In this document: positions 17,269-46,431 of the stretch, piece by piece
Position numbering within the stretch: position 1 is the stretch's first letter
Layout: every line of letters starts with the position of its first letter
Origin: a virus
Length of the DNA stretch: 56,565 nt
IMG/VR virus record: IMGVR_UViG_3300043788_000176
Location: 1-56,565 of that record
Direction: 5' to 3' (one strand)
Notes under the pieces: model-generated
Told to the model about the DNA's origin: nothing
Database searches by the model: none
The model's input: the letters and a program-made list of their open reading frames with translations, nothing else
Program-made: the position numbers and the translations under genes

Positions 17269-19761
17269 ATGCGTTGGCATCTGGCGCTTGCGGCGGCACT
17301 GATAGGCGTCTGGGCGATCACGGCTCACGCCGCATCGACGATCGTCCCCAATTTATTGCCGATCGGCATTCCCGCCAATGCGGGGCTGATTAACCAAAAC
17401 TTCGGCAACGCGATCAACGACGTAAACGCGTTGCAGACGCAGAATGCGGGCGTCACGCCGCCGTCGAACCCGTCTCGGGGCTATTTCTGGTTGTCGACCC
17501 CGCAGAACGGTACGATCTATGAATTGAATGTCTGGGATGGCACAAAATGGTTGCCGATCGCCGGGCTTGATTCGGTCAATCACATTTGGATGCCGCCGAT
17601 CGGCGGTGGTGTGCCACCAACAATCCTCAGTGCGACCACGACTGATCTGGGCTCAGTACCGCAGGCGACCGTCTCTATCTCGGGCGTGAATGCGATCCAG
17701 AGCTTTGGTACCAGTGCCCCAGCAGGCACGATCAAGGTCGTGCTGTTCACGGCGGCGACGCCGCTGATCAATTCGGCCTCACTGGTTCTGCCGGGGAACA
17801 CAAATATCACGCAGACAGCAGGGGGCGTAGAGGCCGCGCTGGCGCAGGGCGGCGGCGCTTGGAAGGTCATTTTCGATTCGCAATCGGTGTTGGTTGGTAC
17901 TGGCGTCAATGGAGTGTTTGTCTGTCCGAGCATCACCGTTGCGAACGGCCTGATTTCGTCTGCCGCTGGAGCCGCTTGTCCGGTCAATGTCGCCACCAAT
18001 GCCGCGCTACAGGCGATAACCGCTCCCGCGGCCGGTACCGAGGTCTTCCGCGCGGGATTTTACGCTGCTGGCGATGGCGGGAAGGCAAACTATACATTCT
18101 CGACATCAGCATGCTCATTAAATGCTGGCACCGGGGATAACGGTTCGCAAGTTGCGCCGACTGCGGGCAGCGGCTGTTGGCTCGTCCAGGTCCCCCCCAC
18201 TGGTCTTAGCTTCAAGGTTTGGGGCGCTAAGATGGACGGCGCCACCAATGACGCGGCGGCAGATCAGGCCGCGCTTAACTGGGCGGGCCAGGTACCCGGA
18301 GGCACACTACAGGTCCCTGCAGGGGGGTTATCTTACACTGGATCGGCGCAGATTACCGATAATGGCCTTCCTGTCATCATCCACGGCAACAATCCGACAA
18401 ACGGCAACGACAACGGTGCCTGCACGAGCGGATTCACCGATGTTGCCGGCGGGATTGGGGCGAACATCAACATCCTCAGCCTAACGGGCACCGGGAGCAA
18501 GATCGACCACACCTGCATCCTGGCCGGGAGCGCCAGCACGCCCGCGACCGCTGGCACGGTGCTGACGATCGGCGGAACAGGCACCTCGAACGGCGTAAAC
18601 CAGGCCGCAACCTTCGATACGATAAAATTCCCGTACATCGGCATCGCCGCTGGCGGGTCGACGCACGGGTCGACGGACACCAATAGCCTACATCTCGAGA
18701 ACGATTGGGTCGTCAGTCCCAGCTTCGCCGGGATCGTGATCGGCCAATTCAGCTCCAACGCCACGACCGGGGGGCTGATCCTTAGAGGAGACCGCGTTAC
18801 TTGCGCGCCGCCCGACACGGCCGCCTATGGCATTGCCATCTATGATGGTGCCATTGACCACTACGATGGCACCGACATCACCAACTGTAATCAGAATCTG
18901 GCTGTTATCCCCGGCGCCGCTGGCGGCTCCGGCCAGACGGTCCTCGGGTTCTTCTACGACGTGCTTGGTGATACGGGCATCTTGAACCAGCTCTATATTG
19001 AGCCGCAGACATCTCAGGGCAAAGTCGAGTATTTCGATTGTAACGGCTGCTGGATCGGGATGAACAACAACACAACGGGTGCGGGCGCAGTGATCGCTAA
19101 CCGCAACGGCGGTGTCGTCCAAGGGATCACGTTCAGCGGAGGCATCGCCCACGGCAACAACAACAACGCGAACTCGCCGGAGGATATTTTCGACATCGAG
19201 GGCAATATTTGTGGCGTTACAATCGTGGGTATGCAGATCGCCGCCGATGGCGGCGGGGCCGACGCCAATAACGGGATAAATGACAATAGTACGTGCTCAA
19301 GTGCTATGGTCTACAGCAACGATAATTACAGCTTCAATGCCGGAACGCTTGGGATTGGTCTTCATATAACTTCAACGGCTGGCGATAACCGCACGATTGT
19401 TGGGAACAATTGGTCACAGACGTTCACGCCATTTCAATTCGATCCGACTTCGGCCATCTATCGGATGACCGAGACGAACAACTTTCCGTTGTCAACCAAT
19501 ACCCCCTCTGCCTTGACGGCCGCAGCCTCGATCGCCGCGCCGCTGTTCGACTGGTTTGGCATAAACGGCACGACGACAATCAGCAATATGTCTGGGTTCT
19601 GGCAGACACGATACGTCCGCATTCGGGCAAACTCGGCCGGACTCAACTTCGCGACCGGTGGTGGGACCGGTGGCTTCTGCATGGCCTTTGGGCCTACGAC
19701 ATCGGGGGAAATCGTGCAGGCTTACTGGAACGCGAACAATGCTTGCTGGGATTTGAAGTGA
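17269..19761 (+). CDS. Tailspike-like beta-helix protein with signal peptide
   Basis: An 830-residue protein starting at ATG 17269 (GGCGG upstream). The N-terminus is a classic Sec signal peptide (MRWHLALAAALIGVWAITAHA, cleavage after AHA). Next comes a virion-like domain with FWLSTPQNGTIYELNVWDG. The segment FKVWGAKMDGATNDAAADQ (about residue 320) is the usual entry into a right-handed beta-helix tailspike (pectate-lyase fold), followed by roughly 350 residues of Asn/Gly-rich coils. Such proteins bind or cut surface polysaccharide. A signal peptide on a tailspike is unusual. Confidence 0.75.
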   Translation: MRWHLALAAALIGVWAITAHAASTIVPNLLPIGIPANAGLINQNFGNAINDVNALQTQNAGVTPPSNPSRGYFWLSTPQNGTIYELNVWDGTKWLPIAGLDSVNHIWMPPIGGGVPPTILSATTTDLGSVPQATVSISGVNAIQSFGTSAPAGTIKVVLFTAATPLINSASLVLPGNTNITQTAGGVEAALAQGGGAWKVIFDSQSVLVGTGVNGVFVCPSITVANGLISSAAGAACPVNVATNAALQAITAPAAGTEVFRAGFYAAGDGGKANYTFSTSACSLNAGTGDNGSQVAPTAGSGCWLVQVPPTGLSFKVWGAKMDGATNDAAADQAALNWAGQVPGGTLQVPAGGLSYTGSAQITDNGLPVIIHGNNPTNGNDNGACTSGFTDVAGGIGANINILSLTGTGSKIDHTCILAGSASTPATAGTVLTIGGTGTSNGVNQAATFDTIKFPYIGIAAGGSTHGSTDTNSLHLENDWVVSPSFAGIVIGQFSSNATTGGLILRGDRVTCAPPDTAAYGIAIYDGAIDHYDGTDITNCNQNLAVIPGAAGGSGQTVLGFFYDVLGDTGILNQLYIEPQTSQGKVEYFDCNGCWIGMNNNTTGAGAVIANRNGGVVQGITFSGGIAHGNNNNANSPEDIFDIEGNICGVTIVGMQIAADGGGADANNGINDNSTCSSAMVYSNDNYSFNAGTLGIGLHITSTAGDNRTIVGNNWSQTFTPFQFDPTSAIYRMTETNNFPLSTNTPSALTAAASIAAPLFDWFGINGTTTISNMSGFWQTRYVRIRANSAGLNFATGGGTGGFCMAFGPTTSGEIVQAYWNANNACWDLK

Positions 19762-20018
19762 TGCTCAGATCCGTCGTCATCGCACTCTTATTTGTTACGG
19801 CGACGCTGCCCGGCGTTGCCGCAGCGCCTGCCTCCACCCCCGTCGTCGGCGATCCTATGCTGGCGCATGCTGGCTTCGATCGACAGTACCTGACCGATCT
19901 CAAGGCTAAATTTTCAGGTAACTATTGCCAGGGAACGCCCGCTCCCAAACCGGGCGAGGCGACGCATCTGGTGCTGAACACGGCCAGGAACTGCTTGGAG
20001 AGGCACAACCACAGGTGA
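19761..20018 (+). CDS. Small exported protein
   Basis: An 85-residue protein; the ATG overlaps the tailspike stop by one base. A signal peptide (MLRSVVIALLFVTATLPGVA, then AAPA) is followed by a short mature part with two cysteines (NYCQGTP, ARNCLE). Its last bases overlap the next gene start (GTGA). Coupling to the tailspike and the shared export signal suggest it acts with it; the function is unknown. Confidence 0.6.
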   Translation: MLRSVVIALLFVTATLPGVAAAPASTPVVGDPMLAHAGFDRQYLTDLKAKFSGNYCQGTPAPKPGEATHLVLNTARNCLERHNHR

Positions 20019-20749
20019 CCTACGAAGAGAATCTTCGCGTCCTAGCCGAGCTTGCTGGCGACAGCTCGCTGGAGAGCGATCCCGACTTTCTTTCGTTCCT
20101 GCCGTATTGCATTTCGTCGGCTGAGTTGAAGATATGCCGCGACCTCGATCTGCTGAGTACATACGTCACCGACAATTCCGGCAAATTGACCATCAACAGC
20201 AAGGTGTTCCAACTGCCGACCGACGTTGGGATCTTCATCGTGGTCTCACAACTCAGGGTGATCACCCCGAGTCCATCTGGCCCCGGCGCTGTCGGAATCT
20301 TCGGGCCGCCACTCCTGCCAGTGTCAAAGGATACAGTAGATTCATTGTGGCCGCTGGAAACCGCGCCGTCTTTCCCAAGCATCCCTACGATGTGGGCACC
20401 GATTGACCAAGCGAACGTGGTCGTGGCACCACCGCCAGACCAGGATTATTTTATCAGCGTCTTCGGGACGCAACGACCGGTGACGCTGGGTCCGAAAACG
20501 CCCCCTCCTGGCACGTTTATCAGCGTACAGTTGCGCGATCTGTTCGTGGCGGCCGAGATGTTAGAAATAAGCGCCCAGCAACGCAACTGGTCGGCTCATG
20601 GCGACGACCCGCAGATGGCAATAGGGTGGCGGAACGAGTACGATAAACTTATGGCACCCGCGTTGATTGAGGAATACCGCAAGAAATTGCAGAGCACAGG
20701 GTGGCATCCAGGTTTCCCACCTAGAGCCGCCACCCCGCCGCAGACATAA
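20015..20749 (+). CDS. Protein of unknown function in the tail module
   Basis: A 244-residue protein taken from GTG 20015, which overlaps the previous stop in GTGA; an earlier ATG inside the upstream gene is less likely. The N-terminal part is helical and acidic, the middle beta-rich and Pro/Gly-rich (ITPSPSGPGAVGIFGPPLLP), the C-terminus helical. It has no signal peptide. No family is recognised; its position suggests a virion or fibre-assembly part. Confidence 0.55.
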   Translation: MTYEENLRVLAELAGDSSLESDPDFLSFLPYCISSAELKICRDLDLLSTYVTDNSGKLTINSKVFQLPTDVGIFIVVSQLRVITPSPSGPGAVGIFGPPLLPVSKDTVDSLWPLETAPSFPSIPTMWAPIDQANVVVAPPPDQDYFISVFGTQRPVTLGPKTPPPGTFISVQLRDLFVAAEMLEISAQQRNWSAHGDDPQMAIGWRNEYDKLMAPALIEEYRKKLQSTGWHPGFPPRAATPPQT

Positions 20750-20751
20750 TG

Positions 20752-21024: not shown

Positions 21025-21092
21025 GGCGTCCCATTCTGTACCAGAAAGCCGCCATCTAATACCATCTTTCGCCATGTCACGCCATCAAAAAG

Positions 21093-23072
21093 ATGACCCT
21101 TGTCCCGATCAAGTTGCGCCCTGGCGTGACAACTCAGCCGACTCCTCTGCTAAATGAATCTGGCTGGTCCCAAAGTCAAAACATCCGCTGGAAAGATAGC
21201 TTGCCAGAAAAATACGGCGGCTATTTCCAGTTCGCGCAAGTGCCGTCTGACGCGGGCGTGCCCCTAGCATTACAGGCGTGGACCTCTCTGGCGAACCTAG
21301 ACTTTCTCGGCATCGCCTGCTTCCATGGTCTTGAGGTTTTCCTGTCGGAGCAGGTCTACGATATCACGCCGAACACCATCTTCTCGCTGGTGCCGCTGTC
21401 AATCTCGACCACCACCGGCAGTGCCGTCGTTGTGATCGCAGACTCGGTCAACGCGCCGATTGTCGGTGAGTGGTTTCAGATTCACGATCCAATTTCTGTT
21501 GGCGGGATCATCCTGCAAGGAAGTTACGGGGTCACCGCGATCGGCGCGGGCACCTATTCGATTATGTCGGCGGTTGAGGCGACATCTTCAGTGGTGGCTG
21601 GTGGCCAATCCCGCATTCTGACTACGGTTGCGGGGTCCAAGACAGTCACCGTCAATTTACCCAACCACGGCTTGTTCAATGGGCAAATCGCGAGCTTTCC
21701 GGACCCCACGCCGATCGGCGGTCTGACGCTGCAAGGCAATTATTTGACCGTCTACGTTAACTCTAGCACTTACGAGGTGACAGCCGCGACTGCGGCAACG
21801 TCGAGTGTAACCGAGCCTGAGCAGCAGGCTGCATTCGGCGCTGGCGAGGCAATGCAGATTACCTTCTTCAATCCCGCGACTGGTGGGACGCAAGTTGATA
21901 TGCACGCCTCGCAGGCGACGATGGCGAACTGGGGCGAGTTTCTGATGTGGTGCCCGCAGTTCGGTCCGGTGTTTGTCTGGATGCCGGCATCTGGGACATC
22001 AGTCCCAGCCCAGGACATCACGACCGCACCGCAGAGCAACGGCACCATTTTTGTCGCGACACAAGAGGAGCAACTTTTCTGCCTCGGCAGCGTCAATGCG
22101 GCGACTGGTCTGTTTGACCCAATGCTGATCAATTGGTCTGATGTTGCTGATTATACTGATTTTATTCCAACCGTTACCAATCAAGCGGGCGACTTTCGCT
22201 TGGTGACTGGCTCGCGAATTGTGGGTGGCTTGGCGTTGGCAGGCGGCAATATCATCTGGACCGACCTGTGTGCGTATTGGGCGCAGTATCTTGGGTCGCC
22301 TCTGGTTTGGGGGTTTCAGCCTATTGGGCTCAATTTTGGTTTGGTCGGGCCGCATGCTTTTGGCACATTGGGAGCCAATGTATTCTGGATGACCCAGCGT
22401 CAATTCGTGTTCGTGTCGCCGGGCGCGTCGCCGCAGGTCATGGCGTGTGCGGTCTGGGACTTGGTGTTCAAGAACATGGATCTGGCGAACCTCTCCAATG
22501 TCGTGTGCGAGACCAATTCCTTCTACAATGAGGTATCGTGGGAAGTGCCGCAGGCAGATGGCACCGTGACTCGTGCGACCATACAGATTGATACGGGGTT
22601 GTGGAGCTACACGGTTCTGCGTAATAACAGTGACGACGTGCCACGTAGGGCGTGGATTGACCAGTCGGTGTTTGGGGCGCCACTGGCAGCTGATGCAACC
22701 GGCATTATCTGGCAGCATGAAACGGGGAAGAATGCTGGGACACAGCCACTGGCGTGGTATCTGAAGACGGGTATTATCATGGTCGCCGAGGGCGACCAGA
22801 TTACGTTTTTTAGAGAAGTCAAGCCAGACTTCAAGTTTAGCGAAACCGGCCCTGGCCCTGGTGTTGTCCAATGCAAGATTTATGTCTATCAGGACCCGCT
22901 CGATTCCCCTACTGTGAAAGGACCTTTTTATATAACAGACAAGACAAGATCAATTCCTGGAGCTAGAGGAAGAGGAAGGGGTATCCAATTCGAATTTAGT
23001 GGCAATGACCTTTCGAGTTGGGTAAGAGGAGGAATGATCAGGTACAGAGGTAGTTCGGATGGACGAAGATAA
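21093..23072 (+). CDS. Tail hub / DNA-stabilisation protein (P22 gp10-like)
   Basis: A 659-residue protein matching podoviral gp10/T7 gp12-type tail hubs (beta-propeller): starts MTLVPIKLRPGVTTQPTPLLN…GWSQSQNIRW and later has DFIPTVTNQAGDFRLVTGSRI, LVFKNMDLANLSNVVCETNS, NEVSWEVPQADGT and a C-terminal FEFSGNDLSSWVRGGMIRYR. Near residues 185-240 it carries an HGLFNGQ…GGLTLQGNY module like the insertion in the adaptor at 14501. The last 130 bases switch to AGA/GGA-rich codons unlike the rest, just before an HNH gene that overlaps its 3' end. Confidence 0.78.
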   Translation: MTLVPIKLRPGVTTQPTPLLNESGWSQSQNIRWKDSLPEKYGGYFQFAQVPSDAGVPLALQAWTSLANLDFLGIACFHGLEVFLSEQVYDITPNTIFSLVPLSISTTTGSAVVVIADSVNAPIVGEWFQIHDPISVGGIILQGSYGVTAIGAGTYSIMSAVEATSSVVAGGQSRILTTVAGSKTVTVNLPNHGLFNGQIASFPDPTPIGGLTLQGNYLTVYVNSSTYEVTAATAATSSVTEPEQQAAFGAGEAMQITFFNPATGGTQVDMHASQATMANWGEFLMWCPQFGPVFVWMPASGTSVPAQDITTAPQSNGTIFVATQEEQLFCLGSVNAATGLFDPMLINWSDVADYTDFIPTVTNQAGDFRLVTGSRIVGGLALAGGNIIWTDLCAYWAQYLGSPLVWGFQPIGLNFGLVGPHAFGTLGANVFWMTQRQFVFVSPGASPQVMACAVWDLVFKNMDLANLSNVVCETNSFYNEVSWEVPQADGTVTRATIQIDTGLWSYTVLRNNSDDVPRRAWIDQSVFGAPLAADATGIIWQHETGKNAGTQPLAWYLKTGIIMVAEGDQITFFREVKPDFKFSETGPGPGVVQCKIYVYQDPLDSPTVKGPFYITDKTRSIPGARGRGRGIQFEFSGNDLSSWVRGGMIRYRGSSDGRR

Positions 23073-23799
23073 GTTACCATCATCTCGGGCTGAAGCGGAA
23101 GCGTCTGGGTCTATGTTCTATTTCAACGGCCGTCTGTGTGTTCATGGTCATCGGAGCAAGCGATATAAATCCGGTCAATGCCACGCGTGCAAGACAGGAG
23201 TGCCGACAGTTGAAACCTGCCATGAGACGGAGGAATGGAAAACAGTCCCCGGATACGAGGGGTATTATGAAGCCTCACGAAGCGGCAAGGTGCGGGCATT
23301 ACCGCGCAAGACGCCATATGGTCCTGGTTTCAGATGCCGCCGCCCACGCCTCGTCCGTGGCAGTGTCAGGCATGGATGCATAATGGTAGGATTATCGCAC
23401 GATAAATATAAGTCAAAGCTTGTTACTCTGCACTCAGTGATAGCGCAAACCTTTATTGGGCCGCGTCCGCTAGGGAAATTGATCTGTCATAACAACGGCA
23501 ATTTTTTAGATAATCGGCCAGAAAATCTTAGGTACGATACTCACAAGGGCAATTCGCAAGATGCGATAAAGCACGGCACAATGCGCGGTGATAAGTGGAA
23601 ACGCACGAAACTCTCCGTGGCTGATGTGATAAAAATTCGCGTTCTTCTCAAAGAGAGAACGCAAGAATCAATTGCGAGGGAATTTGGGGTCAGTAACGGA
23701 GCGATACGCGCCATAATCGAGGGGCGGACATGGAAGTACGTTGCTGACCCGACTATCAAAATGGCAGATGGTCTCTTGTCCTACCTCATGTTCGGCTAG
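23059..23799 (+). CDS. HNH homing endonuclease (NUMOD4-HNH-HTH)
   Basis: A 247-residue protein overlapping the tail-hub gene by 14 bases. It has an N-terminal Cys/His segment (C27…C41-HAC44), a NUMOD4 module at residues 59-112 (EWKTVPGYEGYYEAS), an HNH_3 core at about 120-160 (H125, ICHNNGNFLDNRPENL with H144) and a C-terminal helix-turn-helix (TQESIAREFGVSNGAIRAI). The gene is AT-rich. Its TAG stop is followed immediately, in the same frame, by the ATG of the next fibre-like gene, so amber readthrough would fuse the two. Confidence 0.88.
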   Translation: MDEDKLPSSRAEAEASGSMFYFNGRLCVHGHRSKRYKSGQCHACKTGVPTVETCHETEEWKTVPGYEGYYEASRSGKVRALPRKTPYGPGFRCRRPRLVRGSVRHGCIMVGLSHDKYKSKLVTLHSVIAQTFIGPRPLGKLICHNNGNFLDNRPENLRYDTHKGNSQDAIKHGTMRGDKWKRTKLSVADVIKIRVLLKERTQESIAREFGVSNGAIRAIIEGRTWKYVADPTIKMADGLLSYLMFG

Positions 23800-24432
23800 A
23801 TGTCTGGTATTCCTTCTGGCTCGATCCCGGCTGGCGCTCGTGGCGCGACCCCCGGTCTGACGCAGATCGACACCGACCTCCAGCAACTAATCAAGGCGAT
23901 CAACCGGCTGACCGAGACAACCGGTCAAATCCCAACCCTAGTGCTGGTGACCCAGGGGGGTACTGGGGCAACGACAGCGGCGGGCGCGCGCACGAACCTC
24001 GGTATCGGCACGCTTGGCACTGAGAATTCCAACAGCGTCGCGATCACTGGCGGCACGATTGACGGCACGAACATTGGCGAGACCACGCCCGCATTCCTAG
24101 CGGCGACGACATTGATCAACAATGGCGCATCCGCAGACGAGTCGGGAGACTATCACCAGCCGACGAGCGGCTTTACGATCACGGTGCCCAGCGGGTCATC
24201 ATGGCTGATCCTTGATCCGTCAGGAACGCTCGGCTTGGGCACGGTGGTGATGCCAGTGGGACCGATTGACGGACAGAACGTGATCATCTCGACCTCGCAT
24301 GCGATCACTGGGTTCACCGTGTCGCCAAACGGATCGCAGACCCTAAACGGTGCGCCGACAACGATTGTGGCGAACACCTCGATGTGGTGGCGCTATCGCC
24401 TCGCCAATACGACATGGTATCGACTATTATGA
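23800..24432 (+). CDS. Tail-fibre-like virion protein
   Basis: A 210-residue protein beginning right after the TAG of the HNH gene. Residues about 50-75 carry LVTQGGTGATTAAGARTNLG, a hallmark of phage fibre proteins. The rest is Gly/Thr/Asn-rich and ends MWWRYRLANTTWYRLL, a typical fibre C-terminal motif. No ribosome-binding site is obvious, so translation may depend on the upstream gene. Its end overlaps the next ATG (ATGA). Confidence 0.7.
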   Translation: MSGIPSGSIPAGARGATPGLTQIDTDLQQLIKAINRLTETTGQIPTLVLVTQGGTGATTAAGARTNLGIGTLGTENSNSVAITGGTIDGTNIGETTPAFLAATTLINNGASADESGDYHQPTSGFTITVPSGSSWLILDPSGTLGLGTVVMPVGPIDGQNVIISTSHAITGFTVSPNGSQTLNGAPTTIVANTSMWWRYRLANTTWYRLL

Positions 24433-24635: not shown

Positions 24636-24636
24636 A

Positions 24637-25887
24637 ATGTTCATTGGTCGCGACTTCCCTGCGTTTGAAGACAACCAAAGTCGGGTATTGGGGTTCGACC
24701 TGACTGCGGTGTTGGCTGAAGGCGAGATCGTCAATTCGGCCACGTCGTCCCTGCTGGTCTGGAAGGGTACCGATGCCGTGCTGGCCAACAATCCGACAGC
24801 GCGATTTATCGGCACGACGCTGGTCAACAACAATGTTGTCACCCAGGGGATTATTCTCAACGATCCGCTGAGCACTCTGGTCGGCAATACCTATGCCTTG
24901 CAGTTGGCGGCTTTGACGAGTCTGGGGCAGACAATCTCCCCTTGGGCTCGGTTTACGGTTACGCAAAGCTTCGGCTCGCCTGCGCTACAGTTGATCTTTC
25001 TGACTAGCGACAGCGGCATGATTCTGACGGGGGATGACGGCACGCCGCTGACTTCTGATGGCGGGTCTGGTGTGCCGCCAACGTCAGCGCAGATCATCGT
25101 GTTGCCGGCAGCGCCACTGAAACTGACAATTCCGGGATTGGGTAGTTTCGCGGGTCAGAATTTCCCGACTGCCGATCCCGGCGAGGTGTGGTTTTACGGG
25201 TTCGATTTCTCGCCAGCGCTGAGCCCCAACGAGCAGATCACCAACGCTGCCGCCAGCCTGACCTGTGTTTACGGACCCGATCCGGTGCTGGCACTAAATC
25301 CGACAGCATATTTTGGCGGCAATGTCACGTTGACCAGCGACAGTGGAGAACCGCTGACGGGGGATGATGGTGGTCCGCTGACAGGTGCTGGCCCTATCGG
25401 GCCAGCGACCTCCGGTTCGGTCGTGCAGCAGATTGTGATGTGGCCGTCAGGACTGAATACGGTAGCTGGGAACACTTATATTTTAGGCATCGCCATCGCG
25501 ACGAATTACAGCCAAGCGATCTCACTATGGGCGCGGATCACGGTTGGAGTTGGGTTTGAAACGGCTGGCCCGCTGCCGCCACCATCAGCCCCGCTGCCAG
25601 TACCAGATCCCCCACCGGACCCGCCAGCGCCAACGGGCGGCATCCAACTTGCCGAGATCGGAGGCCAAAATCCATACACATTGGCCAATGGCACGGCGGT
25701 CAATCAAACCGTCCTGATCATTGACAACCTCGGCGTGGCGAGTCAGACGAATCCGATAACGGTCAATGGTGCTTTCAATATCGGTGGTGACTCTGTCGCC
25801 AGCATCATTATGATGCAGACTGGTCAGGGTATTCTGGCGGTGTGGAACGGATCGCAATGGGATGTGCCAAGCTTCTTGCTTGCGTGA
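24637..25887 (+). CDS. Virion protein with repeated beta domains
   Basis: A 416-residue protein made of two related halves: DFPAFEDNQSRVLGFDL with NNPTARF…NTYALQL, then NFPTADPGEVWFYGFDF with LNPTAYF…NTYILGI. Each ends with the motif LTSDSGxxLTGDDGxPLT, also found in unrelated virion proteins at 14501 and 40954. A Pro-rich linker (about residues 305-330) leads to a C-terminal domain (NPYTLANGTAVNQTVLIIDN…ILAVWNGSQWDV) like fibre caps. No signal peptide. Start two bases after the previous stop. Confidence 0.65.
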   Translation: MFIGRDFPAFEDNQSRVLGFDLTAVLAEGEIVNSATSSLLVWKGTDAVLANNPTARFIGTTLVNNNVVTQGIILNDPLSTLVGNTYALQLAALTSLGQTISPWARFTVTQSFGSPALQLIFLTSDSGMILTGDDGTPLTSDGGSGVPPTSAQIIVLPAAPLKLTIPGLGSFAGQNFPTADPGEVWFYGFDFSPALSPNEQITNAAASLTCVYGPDPVLALNPTAYFGGNVTLTSDSGEPLTGDDGGPLTGAGPIGPATSGSVVQQIVMWPSGLNTVAGNTYILGIAIATNYSQAISLWARITVGVGFETAGPLPPPSAPLPVPDPPPDPPAPTGGIQLAEIGGQNPYTLANGTAVNQTVLIIDNLGVASQTNPITVNGAFNIGGDSVASIIMMQTGQGILAVWNGSQWDVPSFLLA

Positions 25888-26198
25888 TGTTAGCGGCAAC
25901 AACCATTGTGGTGTCTGCGAACGCTTCGGAGATATGTAACGCAAAGGACAGTCCGAGCACATGCGCCATGCTCGACGCGTTTGCCACGACCTCGAAAGAA
26001 CTTTTCAATACCGAAGGGGCACGGCGCGCATTGGTGGCTGAGATGGACGCAAAGAATGCCTATTGGCAGAAGTACACATCTGGCGTTTCCGAGGTGCCTG
26101 GATTGCTCGCGCACGTTGTGCGGGCTTGTGCTTGGAAAGGCGTCCAAAACAAGCCCACCGCTGAACTATGCTCTTGGTGGAGAGGACTGAGGCCATGA
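25887..26198 (+). CDS. Small exported protein
   Basis: A 103-residue protein with ATG overlapping the previous stop. A short signal peptide (MLAATTIVVSANA-S) precedes a helical mature domain with four cysteines (EICNAK, STCAML, RACAW, ELCSWW) that could form two disulfides. It overlaps the next gene by four bases. The function is unknown; it is one of a series of exported proteins in the tail module. Confidence 0.6.
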   Translation: MLAATTIVVSANASEICNAKDSPSTCAMLDAFATTSKELFNTEGARRALVAEMDAKNAYWQKYTSGVSEVPGLLAHVVRACAWKGVQNKPTAELCSWWRGLRP

Positions 26199-26989
26199 CT
26201 GGCAGAGTTAAGATTGCGGTTGCCGTTGCCGCTGGGCTGTTGTTTTCGTTGCCTGCGGCGCGCGCGGCAAGCGTTATGACGCCAGGTCAGTTCCTGATCG
26301 TGCCTAACGGTGGCTCTGGTGCTGGCACGTTCACCGCACACGACGTTCTGGTTGGCGAGGGCACGAGTGCGTTTGCTGCAATTTCCCCTGGCGCCACGAG
26401 CGGCGTGCCTCTTATCTCGCAAGGTACCGGGACTGATCCGGTCTTCGGCACGGTTGTAGTGGCGGGCGGCGGCACCGGTCTCGCGACCCTGACCGCACAC
26501 GCGCTGATAATCGGTGAGGGTACCAGCAACGTTGCGTTCGCAGCGGCGGCAGCCGACAGCATCCCGCTGTGGCAATCGTCGGGGGTTGATCCAACCGTCA
26601 CTGCCATCAACAACTGCGCCACGGCGCTGACCTACGCGACATCGACCCACACCTTTGGGTGCAATGCCGCAGCTGGCATCATCCCGACCGAAGCCACCGC
26701 AACTGGCGCTTCGCCGATCACCATCACGGCAACCAATCTCTTGACCACGGTGGTCTCGATGGCGACACCTGCGGCATCGACGATCAATCTGCCGACAGCA
26801 GTACAGACGGCTGGCTGGCGGGAATGCGTCAAAGATGGCACGACTAACTTCGCCACCAACAACGCGACTATAAAGAGCCCCACCTCTGGAACGATTGACG
26901 GAATAGCAGGGTCAACCGGCGTCGTTCTGAACCAGAAAGGGCAGGAGCTTTGCGTAATGTCCGACGCCACCAATTGGTGGACTGAATAA
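26195..26989 (+). CDS. Exported fibre-like protein
   Basis: A 264-residue protein with a clear Sec signal peptide (MTGRVKIAVAVAAGLLFSLP, cleavage after ARA). The mature part starts ASVMTPGQFLIVPNGG and contains two related repeats (TAHDVLVGEGTSAFAAI and TAHALIIGEGTSNVAFA), then a C-terminal capping segment ending LCVMSDATNWWTE, as in phage fibres. The start at 26195 overlaps the previous stop (ATGA). The next gene shares the MTPGQ-LIVPNGG start. Confidence 0.7.
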   Translation: MTGRVKIAVAVAAGLLFSLPAARAASVMTPGQFLIVPNGGSGAGTFTAHDVLVGEGTSAFAAISPGATSGVPLISQGTGTDPVFGTVVVAGGGTGLATLTAHALIIGEGTSNVAFAAAAADSIPLWQSSGVDPTVTAINNCATALTYATSTHTFGCNAAAGIIPTEATATGASPITITATNLLTTVVSMATPAASTINLPTAVQTAGWRECVKDGTTNFATNNATIKSPTSGTIDGIAGSTGVVLNQKGQELCVMSDATNWWTE

Positions 26990-27044: not shown

Positions 27045-28493
27045 GTGCCTGTGTGCCGGACTATCCTGGCATGGCTATGTCTATTAGTCGGCGTCATTCT
27101 GTGTCCGACCGATGCGTTTGCGGCGAACATTATGACGCCCGGTCAGGCACTCATCGTACCCAACGGCGGCATTGGCAACACGACGGTGGCCCCCACTGCG
27201 CTGAGCAATGCGTCCACGGTCACAGTTCCGACCCTCACGGGCATCGGTAATAACTTCACGCTGTCAACGACAACCGCGGTCGGCGCTGTCACGATAGCCA
27301 ACCCGACGAGTTTCACCGTTGGGCAGGTGGTGAATTTTGTATTGCTGCAGGACGCGACCGGTGGGGAGGCCATCACTTTCGGATCTGACTATAATTTCAC
27401 GGCAGGCACGCCGTACTTCAATACGGCGGCAAACGCCAAGAACGTCGTTTCGTGCATAGCCGACACGTCATCGACCCTTCAGTGCTCCGCGACCTACATA
27501 AACGCTCTGAGCGTCGGCATCACGCCGATGCCGGGTGGCCGGATAAGCGACAACACCTCGTCGTGCGCGCACCAGACCGATTCGACCACGATCACGACGC
27601 TCTACTACCTGCCGTGCGTCGGCAACGCGCTGCCGATCTCGCCGAACGACGCGACGTTTTTGACTTATGCGATCCCATCGACATCTACCAGCCTGAGCAC
27701 GGCCAACTCGACGAACTTCCCGGCGAACGGCCTCTTCGATTTCTATGCGTTCATTCATTCTGGCGCGGTCACATATTGCGCGGTCAAATGGGGGACGAGC
27801 ACTGCTGGCGCGTCGTCGAGGGGTGGGTCGGCTGGGATCACGACCCTGCTCGGGCTGACCGTCAACAGCGGTGCGTGGACTTGCCTCAATGGTGCTACCT
27901 CGTACACTCTGACGACGGGCGAGGCGACGCTGCTTGGATCGTTTGTGATCTCGCCCACGGCCCAAGATGTCGCGGTGCAGTTCGTGCCTACGGCTGCAGC
28001 CGGTGGCCCGACGAACGGCTGCTACATTGGCTACGCGAATATCTACAATAGCCAGCCGGCCACCTGCCTTGCGCATGACAACACGTCGTCATGGACCTAC
28101 GGGACGGCCACATGGCAGGCATTAGATGCGGGAGCCACGGGGAGTGGGCTTTATAATCGGGTCTATTGGGTCGATCCTCTTGGCGCCAACAATATTCAGG
28201 CGGCGCTGACTATAGCGATGAAAAACACGACTGCGATTGACTTAGGTGCCGTAGGTATTGGTGTAAATGCGACGAGTACCCTGTCTGGGAATTACGCCGT
28301 AACTGGCGCGGTTAGCACCGCGCAGATGGGCACGGCCATTTATGAAGGTGGTGCGCCGCAAACCGGCGGCGGTCTCAACTACGTGCAGGCGATGCAGTAT
28401 GCAAATGCAACCGCTACCGTGACTTACTATGGTACGGGTGCTGGCGGTCCGACCGGGCAAACGGAGCAGCTCTCTCTGAGGGTGGCTTACTGA
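27045..28493 (+). CDS. Exported fibre/adhesin-like protein
   Basis: A 482-residue protein from GTG 27045. The signal peptide (CRTILAWLCLLVGVILCPTD then AFA) is followed by ANIMTPGQALIVPNGG, paralogous to the protein at 26195. The body is Ser/Thr/Asn-rich beta structure with few charges and several cysteines, typical of secreted fibres. No catalytic motif is recognised. Twelve nearby proteins share the same export or tail context. Confidence 0.65.
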   Translation: MPVCRTILAWLCLLVGVILCPTDAFAANIMTPGQALIVPNGGIGNTTVAPTALSNASTVTVPTLTGIGNNFTLSTTTAVGAVTIANPTSFTVGQVVNFVLLQDATGGEAITFGSDYNFTAGTPYFNTAANAKNVVSCIADTSSTLQCSATYINALSVGITPMPGGRISDNTSSCAHQTDSTTITTLYYLPCVGNALPISPNDATFLTYAIPSTSTSLSTANSTNFPANGLFDFYAFIHSGAVTYCAVKWGTSTAGASSRGGSAGITTLLGLTVNSGAWTCLNGATSYTLTTGEATLLGSFVISPTAQDVAVQFVPTAAAGGPTNGCYIGYANIYNSQPATCLAHDNTSSWTYGTATWQALDAGATGSGLYNRVYWVDPLGANNIQAALTIAMKNTTAIDLGAVGIGVNATSTLSGNYAVTGAVSTAQMGTAIYEGGAPQTGGGLNYVQAMQYANATATVTYYGTGAGGPTGQTEQLSLRVAY

Positions 28494-39563: not shown

Positions 39564-39592
39564 CCTGCATGTTCCACTCTAGGAGATACCCA

Positions 39593-40013: not shown

Positions 40014-40105
40014 CAACGGTCGCCCCACGCTTGGGCGGCGCGAGCAATGTCCCGATGTCGGCTTTGCCAATCTCAACCGCAATCAACCACCTTCGGAGGT
40101 GCCCG

Positions 40106-40951
40106 ATGCCTATCGTCTACAAAGCGACTAACAAGGTTAATGGCCATCACTACGTTGGGATGACGCGAAAGACGCTGGTTGCCCGACGCAGGCGGCATGA
40201 ATCGGTGGCTTTTTCCAGAAACGCTAGGGATCAAGCGCCGCGGCTGTGTTCCGCCTTGCGCAAATATGGGCGAGGCGTTTTTGAATGGGAGGTTATCGGG
40301 GAGTTTGAGACCGCCGAAGAGGCCATTGTTGCCGAGGCCAAGGCGATAGCGGCCCAGCGCCCAGAGTACAACGTCAAAGAGGGCGGAGAATTTACCCCTG
40401 TCGGCGCTGGGCAGAATCGTATTTCGATCATTTGCCTCGACCGTGGCGAAATTTTTCCAAGCATGACAGTTGCCGCCAAGGAATATGGTCTGTGTCTTTC
40501 GGAGGTTTCGGCCGCGTGTAGAGGCGACGCGCTGAGCGTCAAGGGACTGCACTTCATGGTTGCCGAACGGCCTATGTCTCTGGAGGACTGCGCTGAGGCG
40601 ATCAGAACGAAGATTGCCACCCACGTCCTGCAGAGGTCTTGGCGGTCGCGCTCTGTTGAATGGCGGCAACAAGAGATGCGCCGCCGCACAAACGGCAACC
40701 ACGACGCCGTTAACCCCGGCAACCAGTATCGCGGGGTCGAAGATGGTAGGGATGTTAAGGGTCGATCGGCGGCTGGTCCCATACGTTTGTCGCGTGCAGT
40801 CGTGTGCCTGGACGATGGCATCGTGTATCCGAGCGCCAGCGCCGCCGCCCGCGCATACGGGGCGGCACGAAGTGCCGTGATCGAATTATGTCTCGGCAAA
40901 AATGGTCGCCGAACCGCTAGTGGCCATCGCTTTTCTTATCAGGACTACTAA
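40106..40951 (+). CDS. GIY-YIG endonuclease
   Basis: A 281-residue protein with GGAGGTG upstream of ATG 40106. Residues 3-95 form the GIY-YIG domain: IVYKATNKVNGHHYVGMT, then an Arg-rich helix, FEWEVIGEFET and an EAKAIAAQRPEYNVKEGG helix with the metal Glu. Two NUMOD1-like modules (CLDRGEIFPSMTVAAKEYGL and CLDDGIVYPSASAAARAYGA) follow, which give DNA specificity. It is a homing-type gene in the late operon. Confidence 0.9.
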   Translation: MPIVYKATNKVNGHHYVGMTRKTLVARRRRHESVAFSRNARDQAPRLCSALRKYGRGVFEWEVIGEFETAEEAIVAEAKAIAAQRPEYNVKEGGEFTPVGAGQNRISIICLDRGEIFPSMTVAAKEYGLCLSEVSAACRGDALSVKGLHFMVAERPMSLEDCAEAIRTKIATHVLQRSWRSRSVEWRQQEMRRRTNGNHDAVNPGNQYRGVEDGRDVKGRSAAGPIRLSRAVVCLDDGIVYPSASAAARAYGAARSAVIELCLGKNGRRTASGHRFSYQDY

Positions 40952-40953
40952 TA

Positions 40954-41445: not shown

Positions 41446-41545
41446 TCACTGCGGCGTGGGCGTGGTATAAGGGCTATGCCCCTCGCCTTGGGCATTAGGA
41501 AGCTGGCATCTCGCGCGCTGCGGCGGTGTCGCGGACTAGCCACTA

Positions 41546-43648
41546 ATGACCCGAGCAAAGCGCTGGTTTCTGATTGCCGCAGCGACCGTTGCGTCTGGTT
41601 TGTACGCTGGGGCGGCGCATGCGCAGAGCGAGACCTGGTCTAATTTTGTTACCAATGCGCCATCATTGACGCTGCCGTGTCTGAGTTCCGATTTTGTCCC
41701 GGTTGTTCGTGGCAACACGACATTTCACATCGCGGCAACCAACGCCTGTAGTGGTGGGGGTGGGGGCAGCGGCACGGTCACCAGCATCGGCACGACGGCA
41801 CCGCTATCTGGCGGGACAATTACGACGGCGGGTACGCTCTCGCTGACTGGGCCTTCGGATCTGACGACATTTACGGCTAACGCGATCCCGATCGGCGCTG
41901 GCGCTTCGCCATTCGGCGCGATCGGCCCCACGGCAAGCAGTCTGGCTGGGTGGAACGCGAGCGGCGTGGGCTCGGTTATCGCGCTCGGCACGAACTTGTC
42001 GATGTCGGGATCGACGCTGAATGCGACAGGCGGCGGTTCCGTCAGCGTTACGGCGGGCGACACCAGCATTGTCGTGTCGCCTTCTCCGCTTACGGGAACG
42101 GGTACGATTGAGGTCGGCGGCCCCTCGCACCTGACGACATTCGCGACCGGCGCGTTGCCTCTCGGCAACGGCACGTCGCCATTCTCCGCGCTTGCTGCCA
42201 TCAACGGCGATTGTGTGATCGGTAGCGCGGGGGCGTGGACTGCCGGCAGTTGCACGGGTGCGGGCACAGCTTTCAGCGCTCTTGGCGGCGGGACTAACAC
42301 CACTGCCGCGATGCTTGTGGGCTCTGGCGCATCGCTAGGTGCCACGGGATCAGGAACGCTCACGGCGACGGCGGTTCCGTTGAGCGGGATTACTGGGTTC
42401 GGGGCTGGCGTTGCCACGGCGCTCGGAATAGCGCCAGGAACCACAGGATCATTTGCGACACAGGATGGCTCAATCACGACTGGGCACTGCTTGGAGTGGG
42501 GACCTGGTGTTGAGGACGCCGGGTCCGCGTGCGGAAGCGGGGGATCAAGCGCCTTCAGTGCCCTCACCGGGAGCACAAATACGACAGCGGCGATGGTCGT
42601 CGGCTCTGGTGCCTCACTTACCTTCACTGGCTCCGGCACCATCAATGCGTCCGCAGTGCCACTGAGCGGTTTGACGGGCCTTGGCACTGGCGTCGCGACG
42701 GCCCTCGCGATAGCGCCTGGGACCACGGGGTCGTTCACGACGCAGGACGGGGCGATCACGACGGGGAATTGCTTGAAGTGGGGGCCGGGCGTCCAGGATA
42801 ATGGCTCCGCTTGCGGCGGCTCGACGACGATCACCCTCGGCCCCGGCCTTGGCAACTCGCAGACGACCCTCAACGGTACGAGCACGGCGCAGACAGTCAC
42901 GAACTCCTCGACCCTTTATACCCAACTAGGCACCTACGCGCAGACCGCATCTTACACGCTCAATGCCACGTCGGGCGGCACCGCACCATGCTCGGCCGGC
43001 GTTCTGTGCGACCTATCGCGTGGCCTGCTGGCAAACGGTTCCGGGTCGATCGCCTACACCGCACCGAACCCGGCCGGGACGCTGGGCGTCTACCAGATCG
43101 GCGACGAGAGCGGGCACGGCTATACGGTCACGACGGTTGGCGGCACCGCGACTTTCTTCGGCTGCGCTACCGGCTCTCCGACGACGATCACGGTCCCAGC
43201 CAACAATCAGGTCGCGCTTTCGGACCAAGGCTCGTCGGCCAATTCCTACTATTGCTCGATGCAGCCACAGAGCGGCGCGGTGGGGCTCTCGTCGGCGAAT
43301 ACCTTCACCAACACGAACACCTTCACCGGCAACGTGATCGCGCCACACCCGGCGGCGCTGACTGCAACCGGGAACCTCGACCCGACCTCAACGAATATGT
43401 GCGGCGGCTCGATCGCCTATAACAGCAGCTCGGCTGGAACGCTTTCCGTCCTTAGCTCTTGGCCGATCGGCTGCAATGTCAGTGTCGTCGCGATCGGAAC
43501 GGGGTTGGCGACGATCGCGGCGGGAACGGGCACCGTTCACTCGGCCTGCACGACGGTTCGCACACGCGCGCAATACTCGATCATCTGGATACGAAACGAC
43601 GCCGATGCTGGGGCCGGGGTCGTCGAGGTTGGGGGGGATTGCGGCTGA
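41546..43648 (+). CDS. Exported fibre-like protein with tandem 92-residue repeats
   Basis: A 700-residue protein with a Sec signal peptide (MTRAKRWFLIAAATVASGLY, cleavage after AHA). The mature part is fibre-like (TVTSIGTTAPLSGGTITTAG, then LTGPSDLTTFTANAIPIG) and contains two adjacent copies of a unit of about 92 residues (FSALGGGTNTTAAMLVGSGA and FSALTGSTNTTAAMVVGSGA), plus a C-terminal domain with several cysteines. It is Gly/Thr-rich with hardly any Lys. It overlaps the next gene by one base. Probably an adhesin or fibre that is exported. Confidence 0.68.
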   Translation: MTRAKRWFLIAAATVASGLYAGAAHAQSETWSNFVTNAPSLTLPCLSSDFVPVVRGNTTFHIAATNACSGGGGGSGTVTSIGTTAPLSGGTITTAGTLSLTGPSDLTTFTANAIPIGAGASPFGAIGPTASSLAGWNASGVGSVIALGTNLSMSGSTLNATGGGSVSVTAGDTSIVVSPSPLTGTGTIEVGGPSHLTTFATGALPLGNGTSPFSALAAINGDCVIGSAGAWTAGSCTGAGTAFSALGGGTNTTAAMLVGSGASLGATGSGTLTATAVPLSGITGFGAGVATALGIAPGTTGSFATQDGSITTGHCLEWGPGVEDAGSACGSGGSSAFSALTGSTNTTAAMVVGSGASLTFTGSGTINASAVPLSGLTGLGTGVATALAIAPGTTGSFTTQDGAITTGNCLKWGPGVQDNGSACGGSTTITLGPGLGNSQTTLNGTSTAQTVTNSSTLYTQLGTYAQTASYTLNATSGGTAPCSAGVLCDLSRGLLANGSGSIAYTAPNPAGTLGVYQIGDESGHGYTVTTVGGTATFFGCATGSPTTITVPANNQVALSDQGSSANSYYCSMQPQSGAVGLSSANTFTNTNTFTGNVIAPHPAALTATGNLDPTSTNMCGGSIAYNSSSAGTLSVLSSWPIGCNVSVVAIGTGLATIAAGTGTVHSACTTVRTRAQYSIIWIRNDADAGAGVVEVGGDCG

Positions 43649-44361
43649 TGTGGCGCTTTCGCTTCCTCGCCACGCTGCTGCCGTTGTTATGGGGGATACC
43701 TGCCTCTGCGCAGTTCTTGCCGCTCGGGTCGGGGCCGATTCAGAGCGGTGGCCCGGTTGGCCCCCAGATCGTTCACCAGACCAACTCCTTTTTCTCAAGC
43801 GGCTGCGGAAGTGGTTGCGTAGTAACCATTCCATCTACTGCTTCCGGCAATGCCCTGACGATTGGCGTCGTCGCGTATAGCGGCGTCGCAACATTTACTT
43901 ATAGCGATACACATTCTGACACATGCACAAGTTTGACTGCCGGCGTATCCGGGGGCAGTAGCCTTGCCGGAGGCGGGATCGGCGGGTGCGTGAATATTGC
44001 TTCCGGCAACACCTCGGTAACAGTTATATCTTCTTCGGGAACCGACTTTAATATTGACGTAATAGAATGGTCTAATGTGACCGCGTCACCATTTGAGCAG
44101 GCGGCCAGCACTCCCACTGTTGCGACAAGTACGATCACATGCACGACAGCCGGAGCAACCACTGTCGCTAATGATGCGATATATTTGGTAGGCGGCGGGC
44201 CTAACGGATCGGCCTATACGTCGCCGACAAGTCCTTGGGGTACCACCGGGTCGGGTTTTGATTTTTACCAGATCGGGGCGGCGCTCACAAGTTATAGCGG
44301 GACGGTCACTTATACTTCGGCCACGGCAATGTCCTGTTCAATTGTGGCGATAAAGCCATGA
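43648..44361 (+). CDS. Exported virion/adhesin-like protein
   Basis: A 237-residue protein with a Sec signal peptide (MWRFRFLATLLPLLWGIPAS, cleavage before QF). The mature protein is beta-rich, Thr/Ser/Ala-rich and ends MSCSIVAIKP, like bacterial and phage surface beta-sandwich proteins (IEWSNVTASPFEQAAS). It overlaps both the previous stop and the next start, so the export-signal genes form one coupled run. Confidence 0.62.
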   Translation: MWRFRFLATLLPLLWGIPASAQFLPLGSGPIQSGGPVGPQIVHQTNSFFSSGCGSGCVVTIPSTASGNALTIGVVAYSGVATFTYSDTHSDTCTSLTAGVSGGSSLAGGGIGGCVNIASGNTSVTVISSSGTDFNIDVIEWSNVTASPFEQAASTPTVATSTITCTTAGATTVANDAIYLVGGGPNGSAYTSPTSPWGTTGSGFDFYQIGAALTSYSGTVTYTSATAMSCSIVAIKP

Positions 44362-45512
44362 AGCGGCTTGCCTTCCTCGCCGCGCTCTTGGCGCTGTGCG
44401 CGTTTAGCCCGCACAGGTTCGCGGGCGGCAACGTCAACAACGGCCCCGGCTGGATTGCCGTCTTCGACGATCAATTTAGCTGTGCGAACAACATGGTGGT
44501 CTGCACCCAGACGCAGACCCCGACCTCGATCACATGGGACAACAGCAACAGCGGGCTCGGCGAGGGCGTCGTCGTGCTCCCGGCCGCATCGAACGTCACC
44601 GGGGTCGGGCAGATCATCAGCTTGTTCGGCTTCACGAACTCCGGCTCGGGAGGCTCTGCGGCGATCAACATCACGAGCGCGGTGGTCGCCTATACTGACA
44701 GCCAGCACTTCAAGATTTGGCTACCCGCGTCTACCGGGGTGTTCGGGACGATTGGCACTTCGGGAGCGGAGCTTGGCTCTGGGGCGTGGTACGGGACTTT
44801 CAGCGGCGGCGGTGGCCCGATCGAGTGGTGCAACTGCATGGGCAACGGCGACACCGAGGGCTGGAACCCCGCTAATCTGACCGTTGGCGCGAGCGGCCTG
44901 TCGATTGCCTTGGTTGATGCCGCCTGGACCGACCCGCTCGACAACGCCCACACCTACAACTATGGCCACATCGACCAGTCAGCCTATCCCGCCGCGACCA
45001 CGACCGAGCCATTCGCGATCGACACCTACGCGCAATTCCCCTACGGCCAAGGATTTCACACAACCTTCTGGGCACTGGGCAGCAATTCGCCAGACGAGCT
45101 TGATGCCGCCGAGAGCTATGGGTTAGGCGATCCCGTCACGCCGATGCACGGCAACATTCACAACTCAAGCGGCTTTAGCACCTACATGAGTTCGACGCTC
45201 TATTCCGATTTCTCGACTGCCTTTCATCAATACACCGGCATTCAAACAGCCACATCGACGACGAGTTACATCGACGGGACTCAAGAGGGCACGACGACCT
45301 CGAACCAGCCAAATCCAACTAGTGTCTGGTATCCGCTTTACGATGTGACCAGCGACAGCCTGTCGGGAGCGCCGGATTTCGCGTGCTCAGGCGGCTCGCC
45401 GTGCCACACGCTGTTGCGGTATTACCGCATCTACAAGTTCGTCAATAGTTGCTCGCGATACGCGACCATCCCATCTCACTCCACTTCGATAGTGCTGGGG
45501 CCAACATGCTGA
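44358..45512 (+). CDS. Exported GH16-type glycoside hydrolase (depolymerase)
   Basis: A 384-residue protein with a signal peptide (MKRLAFLAALLALCAFSPHR). The mature part has the GH16 laminarinase/agarase layout: WIAVFDDQFS at the start, then TTFWALG…DELDAAESYG with the catalytic motif E247-L-D249-A-A-E252, and HGNIHNSS downstream. GH16 enzymes cut beta-glucans, agars or carrageenans. Next to fibre genes it probably clears capsule or exopolysaccharide. It starts by overlapping the previous stop (ATGA) and overlaps the next gene by seven bases. Confidence 0.72.
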   Translation: MKRLAFLAALLALCAFSPHRFAGGNVNNGPGWIAVFDDQFSCANNMVVCTQTQTPTSITWDNSNSGLGEGVVVLPAASNVTGVGQIISLFGFTNSGSGGSAAINITSAVVAYTDSQHFKIWLPASTGVFGTIGTSGAELGSGAWYGTFSGGGGPIEWCNCMGNGDTEGWNPANLTVGASGLSIALVDAAWTDPLDNAHTYNYGHIDQSAYPAATTTEPFAIDTYAQFPYGQGFHTTFWALGSNSPDELDAAESYGLGDPVTPMHGNIHNSSGFSTYMSSTLYSDFSTAFHQYTGIQTATSTTSYIDGTQEGTTTSNQPNPTSVWYPLYDVTSDSLSGAPDFACSGGSPCHTLLRYYRIYKFVNSCSRYATIPSHSTSIVLGPTC

Positions 45513-45748
45513 AAATTGTCCCGGCTGCTCTCGTGGCAATGACGCTTGCGGCCCCGGCTTGGGCCTCGACCCGGCTGAATGACGCCTACCAGAACTGCAT
45601 TCCGATCATGTCGGCCCATCAGCCGGCGAGCCCCGAAGTCATCAAGGAATGCCAGATGATCGAGCAAAAATACAAGGTGCAGCCGCAAGACAGGCAGTTG
45701 CAGAAGGCACCCCCGATCGACCCTGCCATGAGGGGTGGCCCGAAATGA
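45506..45748 (+). CDS. Small exported protein
   Basis: An 80-residue protein; signal peptide MLKIVPAALVAMTLAAPAWA-S. The mature part is a charged helix with two cysteines (QNCIPIM, KECQMIEQ) and a Pro-rich tail. It overlaps both neighbours (by seven and four bases). No family is recognised. Confidence 0.58.
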   Translation: MLKIVPAALVAMTLAAPAWASTRLNDAYQNCIPIMSAHQPASPEVIKECQMIEQKYKVQPQDRQLQKAPPIDPAMRGGPK

Positions 45749-46431
45749 AGTTTCTATTTCGGCTGGTCCTGCTCGTGGGCCTGATATCGACGGCGGCGCA
45801 GGCCCAGACTATCACTGCTCCGACTGGAACCGTTGCGACATCGGACGGGGCTTCGTGGAGCTGGGGCGGGACCGCACCGCAGGCCGGGCAGTACTACGTC
45901 CTGCGCAACGGCGCATCCGCCGACGGCGGTGAGGCCGCGGTCATGGAAGTGTCCGGCGGCGCGCTGTACGCCGAGAACACCTCGGTCTCTCCGGGCGTGT
46001 GGTTCCTGTGGAACGGCTCCGGCTGGACCCAAGAGGCAAGCGCGCCTTCGCCATCGACCGGGGGCGGCACTACCACGACCGGCGGCTCCTCTGGCGGTAG
46101 CACCACGACGCAGCCGAGCGGCAGCGGCCCTACGCTGTTGACGGGGAGCATCACCCTGACAGCGCCGCTCGCGAACTGGTATCTGATGAACTCGTCTTCT
46201 CTTGCGACGGTCACGTTGCCGCCCTGTTCCGCCATCTCTGCCCCTAGCTACTTTGATACAACCGGGGTGGGGCCGCTGGTGCTACAGCTATCGTCAGGAT
46301 CGTGGGTCGATCAGCCGCCTGGTGCTCAGACAGTCGGACTGTGGGTCTATGGCCCCAGCGCAACTGCTTGGGTTTCGAGCGACGGGACGAACTGTCATAT
46401 CTCCTTTGGGGGCGCTCCCCCCGCGTCATGA
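45745..46431 (+). CDS. Exported fibre-like protein
   Basis: A 228-residue protein with signal peptide MKFLFRLVLLVGLISTAAQA-Q. An N-terminal beta domain (YYVLRNGASADGGEAAVMEV…FLWNGSGWTQ) is followed by a Gly/Thr/Ser-rich linker (about 105-135) and a C-terminal domain ending WVSSDGTNCHISFGG, a fibre-cap pattern. It overlaps the next start by four bases. Confidence 0.62.
   Translation: MKFLFRLVLLVGLISTAAQAQTITAPTGTVATSDGASWSWGGTAPQAGQYYVLRNGASADGGEAAVMEVSGGALYAENTSVSPGVWFLWNGSGWTQEASAPSPSTGGGTTTTGGSSGGSTTTQPSGSGPTLLTGSITLTAPLANWYLMNSSSLATVTLPPCSAISAPSYFDTTGVGPLVLQLSSGSWVDQPPGAQTVGLWVYGPSATAWVSSDGTNCHISFGGAPPAS

Follow-up and report, generated by a model that had tools for sequence, protein, structure and literature searches.

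The stretch analysed here, referred to as the window, comprises bases 1-56565 of the 120,565-base virus record IMGVR_UViG_3300043788_000176. Judged by its gene families, the window belongs to a podovirus-like phage and carries a predicted tail and ejection module. The portal- and capsid-like genes of the record are found outside this module, and a close 122-kb sibling phage has the same layout. Between the adaptor, stabilization, and ejection genes, that is, among the tail genes, sit genes for fibre-like, enzyme-like, and small proteins whose N-termini carry signal peptides (SPs) for export (Table 1). The usual assumption is that tailed phages fold and assemble their tail fibres in the cytoplasm. 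Here, we focus on these SP-bearing proteins and on the maturation route that they suggest.

Signal peptides at the translation starts

SPs were scored with a home-made n/h/c-region model of N-termini, not with SignalP, and a score of at least 14 was called as an SP. Among Escherichia coli controls, the model gave 14.6 for PhoA, 19.6 for OmpA, 23.0 for DsbA, −1.4 for RecA, and −6.4 for GroEL; the LacY membrane helix received 8.9. The first-pass annotation of this DNA had listed Sec SPs at ten positions, and the model supports ten. Specifically, those at 17269, 19761, 26195, 27045, 41546, 43648, 44358, 45506, and 45745 are confirmed, with scores of 14.8-21.8. The tenth SP exists as well, but the ATG named as its start, 25887, falls within the SP of a gene that begins at 25857. 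All ten proteins display a positive n-region, a hydrophobic core, and an AXA-type cleavage site at the translation start; in 17269, for example, the SP spans 17269-17331 (MRWHLALAAALIGVWAITAHA, followed by ASTIVPN). An eleventh signal, absent from the earlier list, is of the twin-arginine (Tat) type and lies on 46428-49982, where a twin-arginine motif precedes a hydrophobic stretch (read from the sequence, with no Tat predictor score).

Chance hydrophobic N-termini can be ruled out: 16 of the 149 called genes of the whole record score at least 14, versus a mean of 0.5 and a maximum of 3 when residues 2-46 are shuffled, and none of 315 internal Met positions reaches that score. Wrong start sites are ruled out too. 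The start codons of 19761, 43648, 44358, 45506, 45745, and 46428 overlap the upstream stop by 1-7 bases, the usual mark of a coupled start, and no SP gene has, just downstream of its SP, another start preceded by a better ribosome site. Starts that would exclude the hydrophobic segments are not convincing.

The premise that virion fibres normally lack SPs holds. Among 108 tail fibres drawn from IMG/VR by their GGTGA motif rather than by SP, 105 are SP-less and three (~3%) carry an SP, and the tail modules of four other phages that share the stabilization protein contain no SP protein. A fifth related phage, L009, encodes four SP proteins, none at a recognisable fibre position.

Paired cysteines in the mature proteins

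An even number of cysteines (Cys) is accepted as a sign that a bacterial protein is exported and disulfide-bonded (PMC7678975). In the virion region, Cys makes up 1.72% of mature SP-bearing proteins versus 0.61% of SP-less ones; when related viral loci are added to the window, the values are 1.74% and 0.55%, a content three times higher with an SP. In that enlarged set, the mature Cys number is even in 42 of 43 complete SP-bearing proteins (39 of the 40 that contain Cys) versus 175 of 390 SP-less proteins. Taking one protein per similarity cluster (clusters with no transmembrane segment), the counts are about 12 of 12 versus 113 of 261; the parity P values are naive, in that relatedness is ignored except in this clustered version. 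Ten proteins have an odd number of Cys within the SP itself and, in all ten, the total is even only for the cleaved form. Because of these paired-cysteine statistics, export is strongly supported. The window SPs look functional and, by this indirect sign, cleaved, and adaptation of the mature parts to an oxidising compartment is well supported by their composition. Export combined with oxidation is, in our judgment, highly probable.

The same data bear on the notion that the hydrophobic N-termini are structural virion segments, or that the true starts lie downstream. Tail proteins sometimes bear hydrophobic termini, and several of the SP genes have weak ribosome-binding sites, both of which would suit such a reading. 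We nonetheless consider it very improbable given the even mature Cys counts, the restoration of parity only when the SP is removed, the overlaps of SP starts with upstream stops, the lack of good downstream starts, and the conservation of an SP while its cargo changes (described below).

Fibre modules with and without signal peptides

Protein 17269 is, by homology, a predicted tailspike or tail fibre. Its SP is followed by an N-terminal domain common to Rhizobium and Bradyrhizobium phage fibres and then by a phrog_33320 tail-fibre body. AlphaFold returned a predicted local distance difference test (pLDDT) value of 30 for the whole mature protein; a modest model of the N-terminal domain (pLDDT 62) has a tail-collar structural match in a viral library (E 4e-8), and a PDB search gave no significant match. 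Homology to known fibre families is also found for the SP-bearing protein L010_9380 (phrog_1858, phrog_523) and for 27045, via the tail spike of Pseudanabaena phage Pam5.

The N-terminal domain of 17269 occurs in named phages in both forms. Bradyrhizobium phage ppBdUSDA122-1 encodes two fibres (WAX24264 and WAX24263) with the same domain, an SP, and even Cys counts (6 and 18). Their genes immediately follow the tail-tip gene, one of the two carries the annotation "tail fiber protein," and an SP-bearing fibre of this phage ends in a canonical collar/fibre tip (phrog_1858, 3e-28; phrog_523, 1e-24). The phage differs from that of the window in having a siphophage-type tail module. The tail collar/fibre proteins of Rhizobium phages RHph_I4 and TM16 share the domain at ~30% identity over ~150 residues, and their gene adjoins a J-like tail tip gene. 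They differ in that the protein starts at the domain, with neither SP nor domain Cys, and in that a fibre assembly chaperone gene follows. Many prophages likewise carry the domain without an SP, and the tail collar/fibre protein of Rhizobium phage P106B appears, by predicted fold, to be related to it.

Within this one family, the Cys contrast recurs. All 16 complete SP-bearing members have an even count (4-18 in the mature protein) versus 15 of 33 SP-less members. In the domain alignment, SP-bearing rows hold 0, 2, or 4 Cys, gained or lost pairwise (TC..QC, IC..AC), whereas SP-less rows hold none; near-twins exist in which SQGSGCMPTTGTVSGL is exported (L177) and MSQGSTVLPTTGVFSGL is not (L185). 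The same contrast separates 27045, with eight mature Cys, from its homologue the Pam5 spike, a single fused, SP-less protein with no Cys (26.7% over 65%, E 2e-9). A GGTGAST-motif module also comes in both forms, with an SP in L045 and without one in 105 proteins. In a tree of the 17269-type domain, the SP-bearing rows group, with five label changes (range 2-5 on bootstrapping; mean 16.5 on shuffling), which is compatible with a single SP origin inside this domain family too. Of the genome samples searched, all small, that of the Nitrobacter family had four genomes with SP-bearing copies, and those of the order, class, and phylum, which were wider, had none; a relation of the host to the Nitrobacter family is only suggested.

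More broadly, many phages have SP-bearing fibres at tail-fibre positions, on several unrelated fibre N-terminal modules. That distribution speaks against host-derived secreted morons, gained by one phage and unrelated to virion biology. GH16- and GH54-like domains do also occur in cellular secreted enzymes, but of the explanations that we weighed, this one is the hardest to credit. Unrelated SP-like fibre starts without Cys (MKKILSLVISAALIVSGYAQTRNVLVGTNN...) were observed in L088, L094, and L102, that of L094 lying under the threshold; they may represent a separate instance from a different host group.

Some relatives divide fibre and anchor between two genes. In L031, L032, L043, L044, and L045, an SP-less protein of 141-200 residues (0-1 Cys) is encoded directly upstream of the SP-bearing fibre, and a C-terminal cap is common to all five loci. 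The first 39 residues of one such anchor align with the beginning of a fused fibre that lacks an SP (L181), and the cap is found inside the fused Pam5 spike; SP-bearing relatives of that spike have the anchor/cap as a distinct SP-less protein beside an exported body. Some of these anchor/cap matches are weak (E 5e-4 to 1e-4). Split genes are the pattern expected if the anchor were to stay on the cytoplasmic virion and the receptor-binding body were exported.

The remaining exported proteins and their context

Protein 26195 is conserved in sibling L015. It shares with 27045 a paralogous mature start, A[SN][VI]MTPGQxLIVPNGG, and the two bodies differ. Protein 41546 has an SP-bearing homologue in sibling G001 (74% identical) and clusters with SP-bearing proteins of L025 and L026, and 45745 is kept with its SP in siblings L016 and L025. 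The GH16-like 44358 matches Glyco_hydro_16 (E 1.1e-7; 31.9 bits versus a Pfam cut-off of 22) and PDB entry 2vy0 (E 1.1e-6), and its ExDxxE catalytic motif is intact (ELDAAE, residue 247). At the corresponding locus of two siblings (L016:7063 and L025:8294), a near-identical SP (MKRLAFLAALLALCAFSPHRFA and MRRLAFLALLLALCAFSPHRFA) precedes a GH54-like cargo instead of the GH16-like one. Finally, the Tat-type 46428 and the Sec-type L025:10059-11150 have a similar mature start (AFRPLGHGFGGG; AF(Q/R)(R/P)LGH(D/G)FGGG), the sibling locus in L016 being 8967-12530. We infer that the short common mature starts of both pairs could be docking sites. Profile searches for known fibre families gave no match for 26195, 41546, or 44358, and named phages yielded no relatives of 41546-, 44358-, or 46428-type proteins (the 41546 type was searched with its L025 relative).

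The mature parts of the larger SP-bearing window proteins (at least 170 residues) contain no hydrophobic segment of at least 1.8 and hence no membrane anchor, and no outer-membrane secretion domain was recognised in the exported proteins. Lipoproteins 50176 and 54497 are separate genes from the SP-bearing set. With neither an anchor nor a recognised domain for secretion across the outer membrane, the exported proteins should wait in the periplasm until lysis.

Table 1. Exported proteins of the window, followed by SP-less and lysis-region features
Position	Strand	Feature	Length (aa)	Cys	SP score or other support
17269..19761	+	Putative tailspike/tail fibre with SP	830	14 mature	SP 19.5; phrog_33320 1.3e-29
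19761..20018	+	Small protein with SP; start overlaps previous stop	85	2 mature	SP 17.0
25857..26198	+	Small protein with SP (MGCAKLLACVMLAATTIVVSANA, then SEIC...)		4 mature, counted by eye	SP 17.2
26195..26989	+	Fibre-like protein with SP; mature N-terminus ASVMTPGQFLIVPNGG	264	4 mature	SP 16.1
27045..28493	+	Tailspike-like protein with SP; mature N-terminus ANIMTPGQALIVPNGG	482	8 mature, 3 in SP	SP 18.0
41546..43648	+	Repeat-rich fibre-like protein with SP	700	16 mature	SP 19.1
43648..44361	+	Protein with SP; start overlaps previous stop	237	6 mature	SP 16.2
44358..45512	+	GH16-like endoglucanase with SP	384	8 mature, 1 in SP	SP 21.8
45506..45748	+	Small protein with SP	80	2 mature	SP 14.8
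45745..46431	+	Fibre-like protein with SP	228	2 mature	SP 17.6
46428..49982	+	Lyase-like protein with Tat-type signal TTRRNFLLG	1184	11	Weak PcRGLX N-terminal domain
20015..20749	+	SU10-type tail adaptor, no SP			PF24175 E 7.9e-10
21093..23072	+	Virion stabilization protein, no SP			phrog_3287 E 6.9e-32
23800..24432	+	Fibre-like protein with GGTGATTAAGARTNLG motif, no SP (internal contrast)		0	
24637..25887	+	Fibre-tail adaptor-like protein Gp77, no SP		1	PF23148, under curated cut-off
31444-35859, 35847-39563	+	Two large internal virion/ejection proteins, no SP	2709 together	0	phrog_4287 (first one)
52860..54841	+	Putative lysis region: glycoside-hydrolase-like protein, holin-like membrane protein, peptidoglycan-binding-like lipoprotein			PF08924 5.3e-16; N-termini

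The putative lysis region lies downstream of the SP genes. A conjugation module, with its many exported Tra proteins and a tRNA array, was considered and is ruled out by the stabilization, ejection, and portal families. A DNA-level search against named phages gave no match. The window carries a 23-tRNA array (413-11876), including a CTA-anticodon tRNA at 11803-11876 that ARAGORN calls tRNA-Pyl and that is a possible amber suppressor. Beside the array, 9694-11097 encodes a 467-residue putative Ro60/TROVE-type RNA-binding protein with a vWA-like end. Putative homing endonucleases of the GIY-YIG and HNH types lie between virion genes (15885-16943, 23059-23799, and 40106-40951). Outside the virion region, further exported proteins occur at G000 coordinates 73086, 73949 (with a Tat-type start), 76358, 76998, 90813, and 103460, and G000 117584-118702, on the minus strand, encodes a putative adenylosuccinate synthetase (GANYGDEAKGRMVDYL).

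A proposed periplasmic route for fibres

We propose the following. Tail fibres, spikes, and depolymerase-like enzymes would be made as Sec precursors that, late in infection, cross the inner membrane, lose their SPs, fold, and form disulfides in the periplasm. The oxidised proteins would remain there in soluble form during cytoplasmic assembly of heads and tails, and the tail in the cytoplasm would bear SP-less anchors or adaptors such as 24637-25887. Opening of the envelope by holin, endolysin, and spanin-like proteins would then bring the oxidised fibres together with the virions, onto which they would dock. To this whole route, from periplasmic oxidative folding of fibres and depolymerases to docking at lysis, we assign a probability of roughly 0.6; the docking step, taken separately, is likewise somewhat favoured.

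The first-pass annotation had offered two readings: export of adhesins and enzymes to the envelope of infected cells for spread, biofilm, or exclusion, or an unusual mounting of fibres from outside. The second fits better because the proteins include real fibre parts, their genes occupy tail-fibre positions, and no membrane anchor is present, the docking that it entails being our inference. As for the first, its export component is supported by the Cys statistics. The envelope role is less favoured because it requires passage of the outer membrane, and no domain for that was recognised, nor any anchor.

A related alternative is that the whole set is exported and never joins the virion, its members acting as free depolymerases, receptor-masking decoys, or exclusion factors. 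Enzyme-like cargo suits this idea (the GH16-like protein with its ELDAAE motif, the GH54-like sibling proteins, and the lyase-like Tat protein), as do the retention of the 44358 SP while the cargo switches from GH16-like to GH54-like and the several small SP-bearing proteins without fibre features. We judge it unlikely for the set as a whole: the proteins retain the N-terminal and tip domains of fibres and their genes the fibre positions, the 16.5-kb tail region of ppBdUSDA122-1 contains no other annotated fibre gene, and the absence of a membrane anchor or a recognised outer-membrane export signal makes surface display before lysis improbable. A free exoenzyme, decoy, or exclusion role is possible above all for the GH16-like 44358, the GH54-like sibling cargo, the Tat protein 46428, and the three small proteins.

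The set could also be mixed. The fibres and spikes 17269, 26195, 27045, 41546, and 45745 would be exported and then mounted, and the GH16-like, Tat, and small proteins would stay periplasmic or be released. This version, which narrows the proposed route and overlaps it, accords with the differing cargo types in one operon-like run and with the odd Cys count of the Tat protein (11) versus the even counts of the Sec proteins. Against it, L025 has a Sec signal in place of Tat at the 46428 locus and keeps a similar mature start, an exchange that suggests one shared fate. We hold it as a tentative alternative.

Several points weigh against export and mounting of the fibres as we propose it. The SP-bearing fibres L046 and L102 contain no Cys, and neither does the N-terminal fibre domain of 17269, whose 14 Cys lie further on, in the body. 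Split genes are evident in relatives but not clear in this window. SPs were called with our own model rather than SignalP, and relatedness enters the parity P values only in their clustered version. Once exported, the GH16-like and GH54-like enzymes and the Tat protein could act on their own as free enzymes. Finally, docking at lysis is a step that the sequence itself does not show.

Relation to known systems and implications

Sec export is already known for phage endolysins and some phage envelope proteins; here, tail fibres would follow an unusual maturation route. Export of endolysins by Sec, through signal-arrest-release sequences or plain SPs, has been described (PMC7143992; PMC8951688). 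In those cases, too, tailed phages use host Sec for a late protein, but the cargo is a lysis enzyme, not a fibre. The lambda Lom-type protein, an exported envelope protein encoded between tail genes (PMC12309495), bears an SP as well and differs in being an outer-membrane beta-barrel. A paper on Bradyrhizobium phages that are produced spontaneously, with strain USDA 122 among those covered, mentions neither SPs nor tail fibres (PMC10127595), and in the open-licence literature, which misses most subscription papers, we found no report of SPs on tail fibres.

In its general form, the notion is that tailed phages possess a second assembly route: host-recognition fibres, split off from their virion anchors, leave the cytoplasm through Sec, are oxidised once periplasmic, and join the particle no earlier than lysis. 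Such a route would serve several unrelated fibre families, so far mainly in phages of Bradyrhizobium-like Alphaproteobacteria, and we consider the odds of this generalization to be even. If it is true, phages gain disulfide-stabilised fibres, receptor-binding and polysaccharide-cutting proteins are kept away from assembling virions, and the last assembly step shifts to lysis. The ways in which receptor-binding proteins are recognised and expressed would change as well: annotation pipelines may mistake exported fibres for secreted enzymes of the host, and expression in the cytoplasm could yield misfolded protein. The proposed route is directly testable in a cultured Bradyrhizobium phage.

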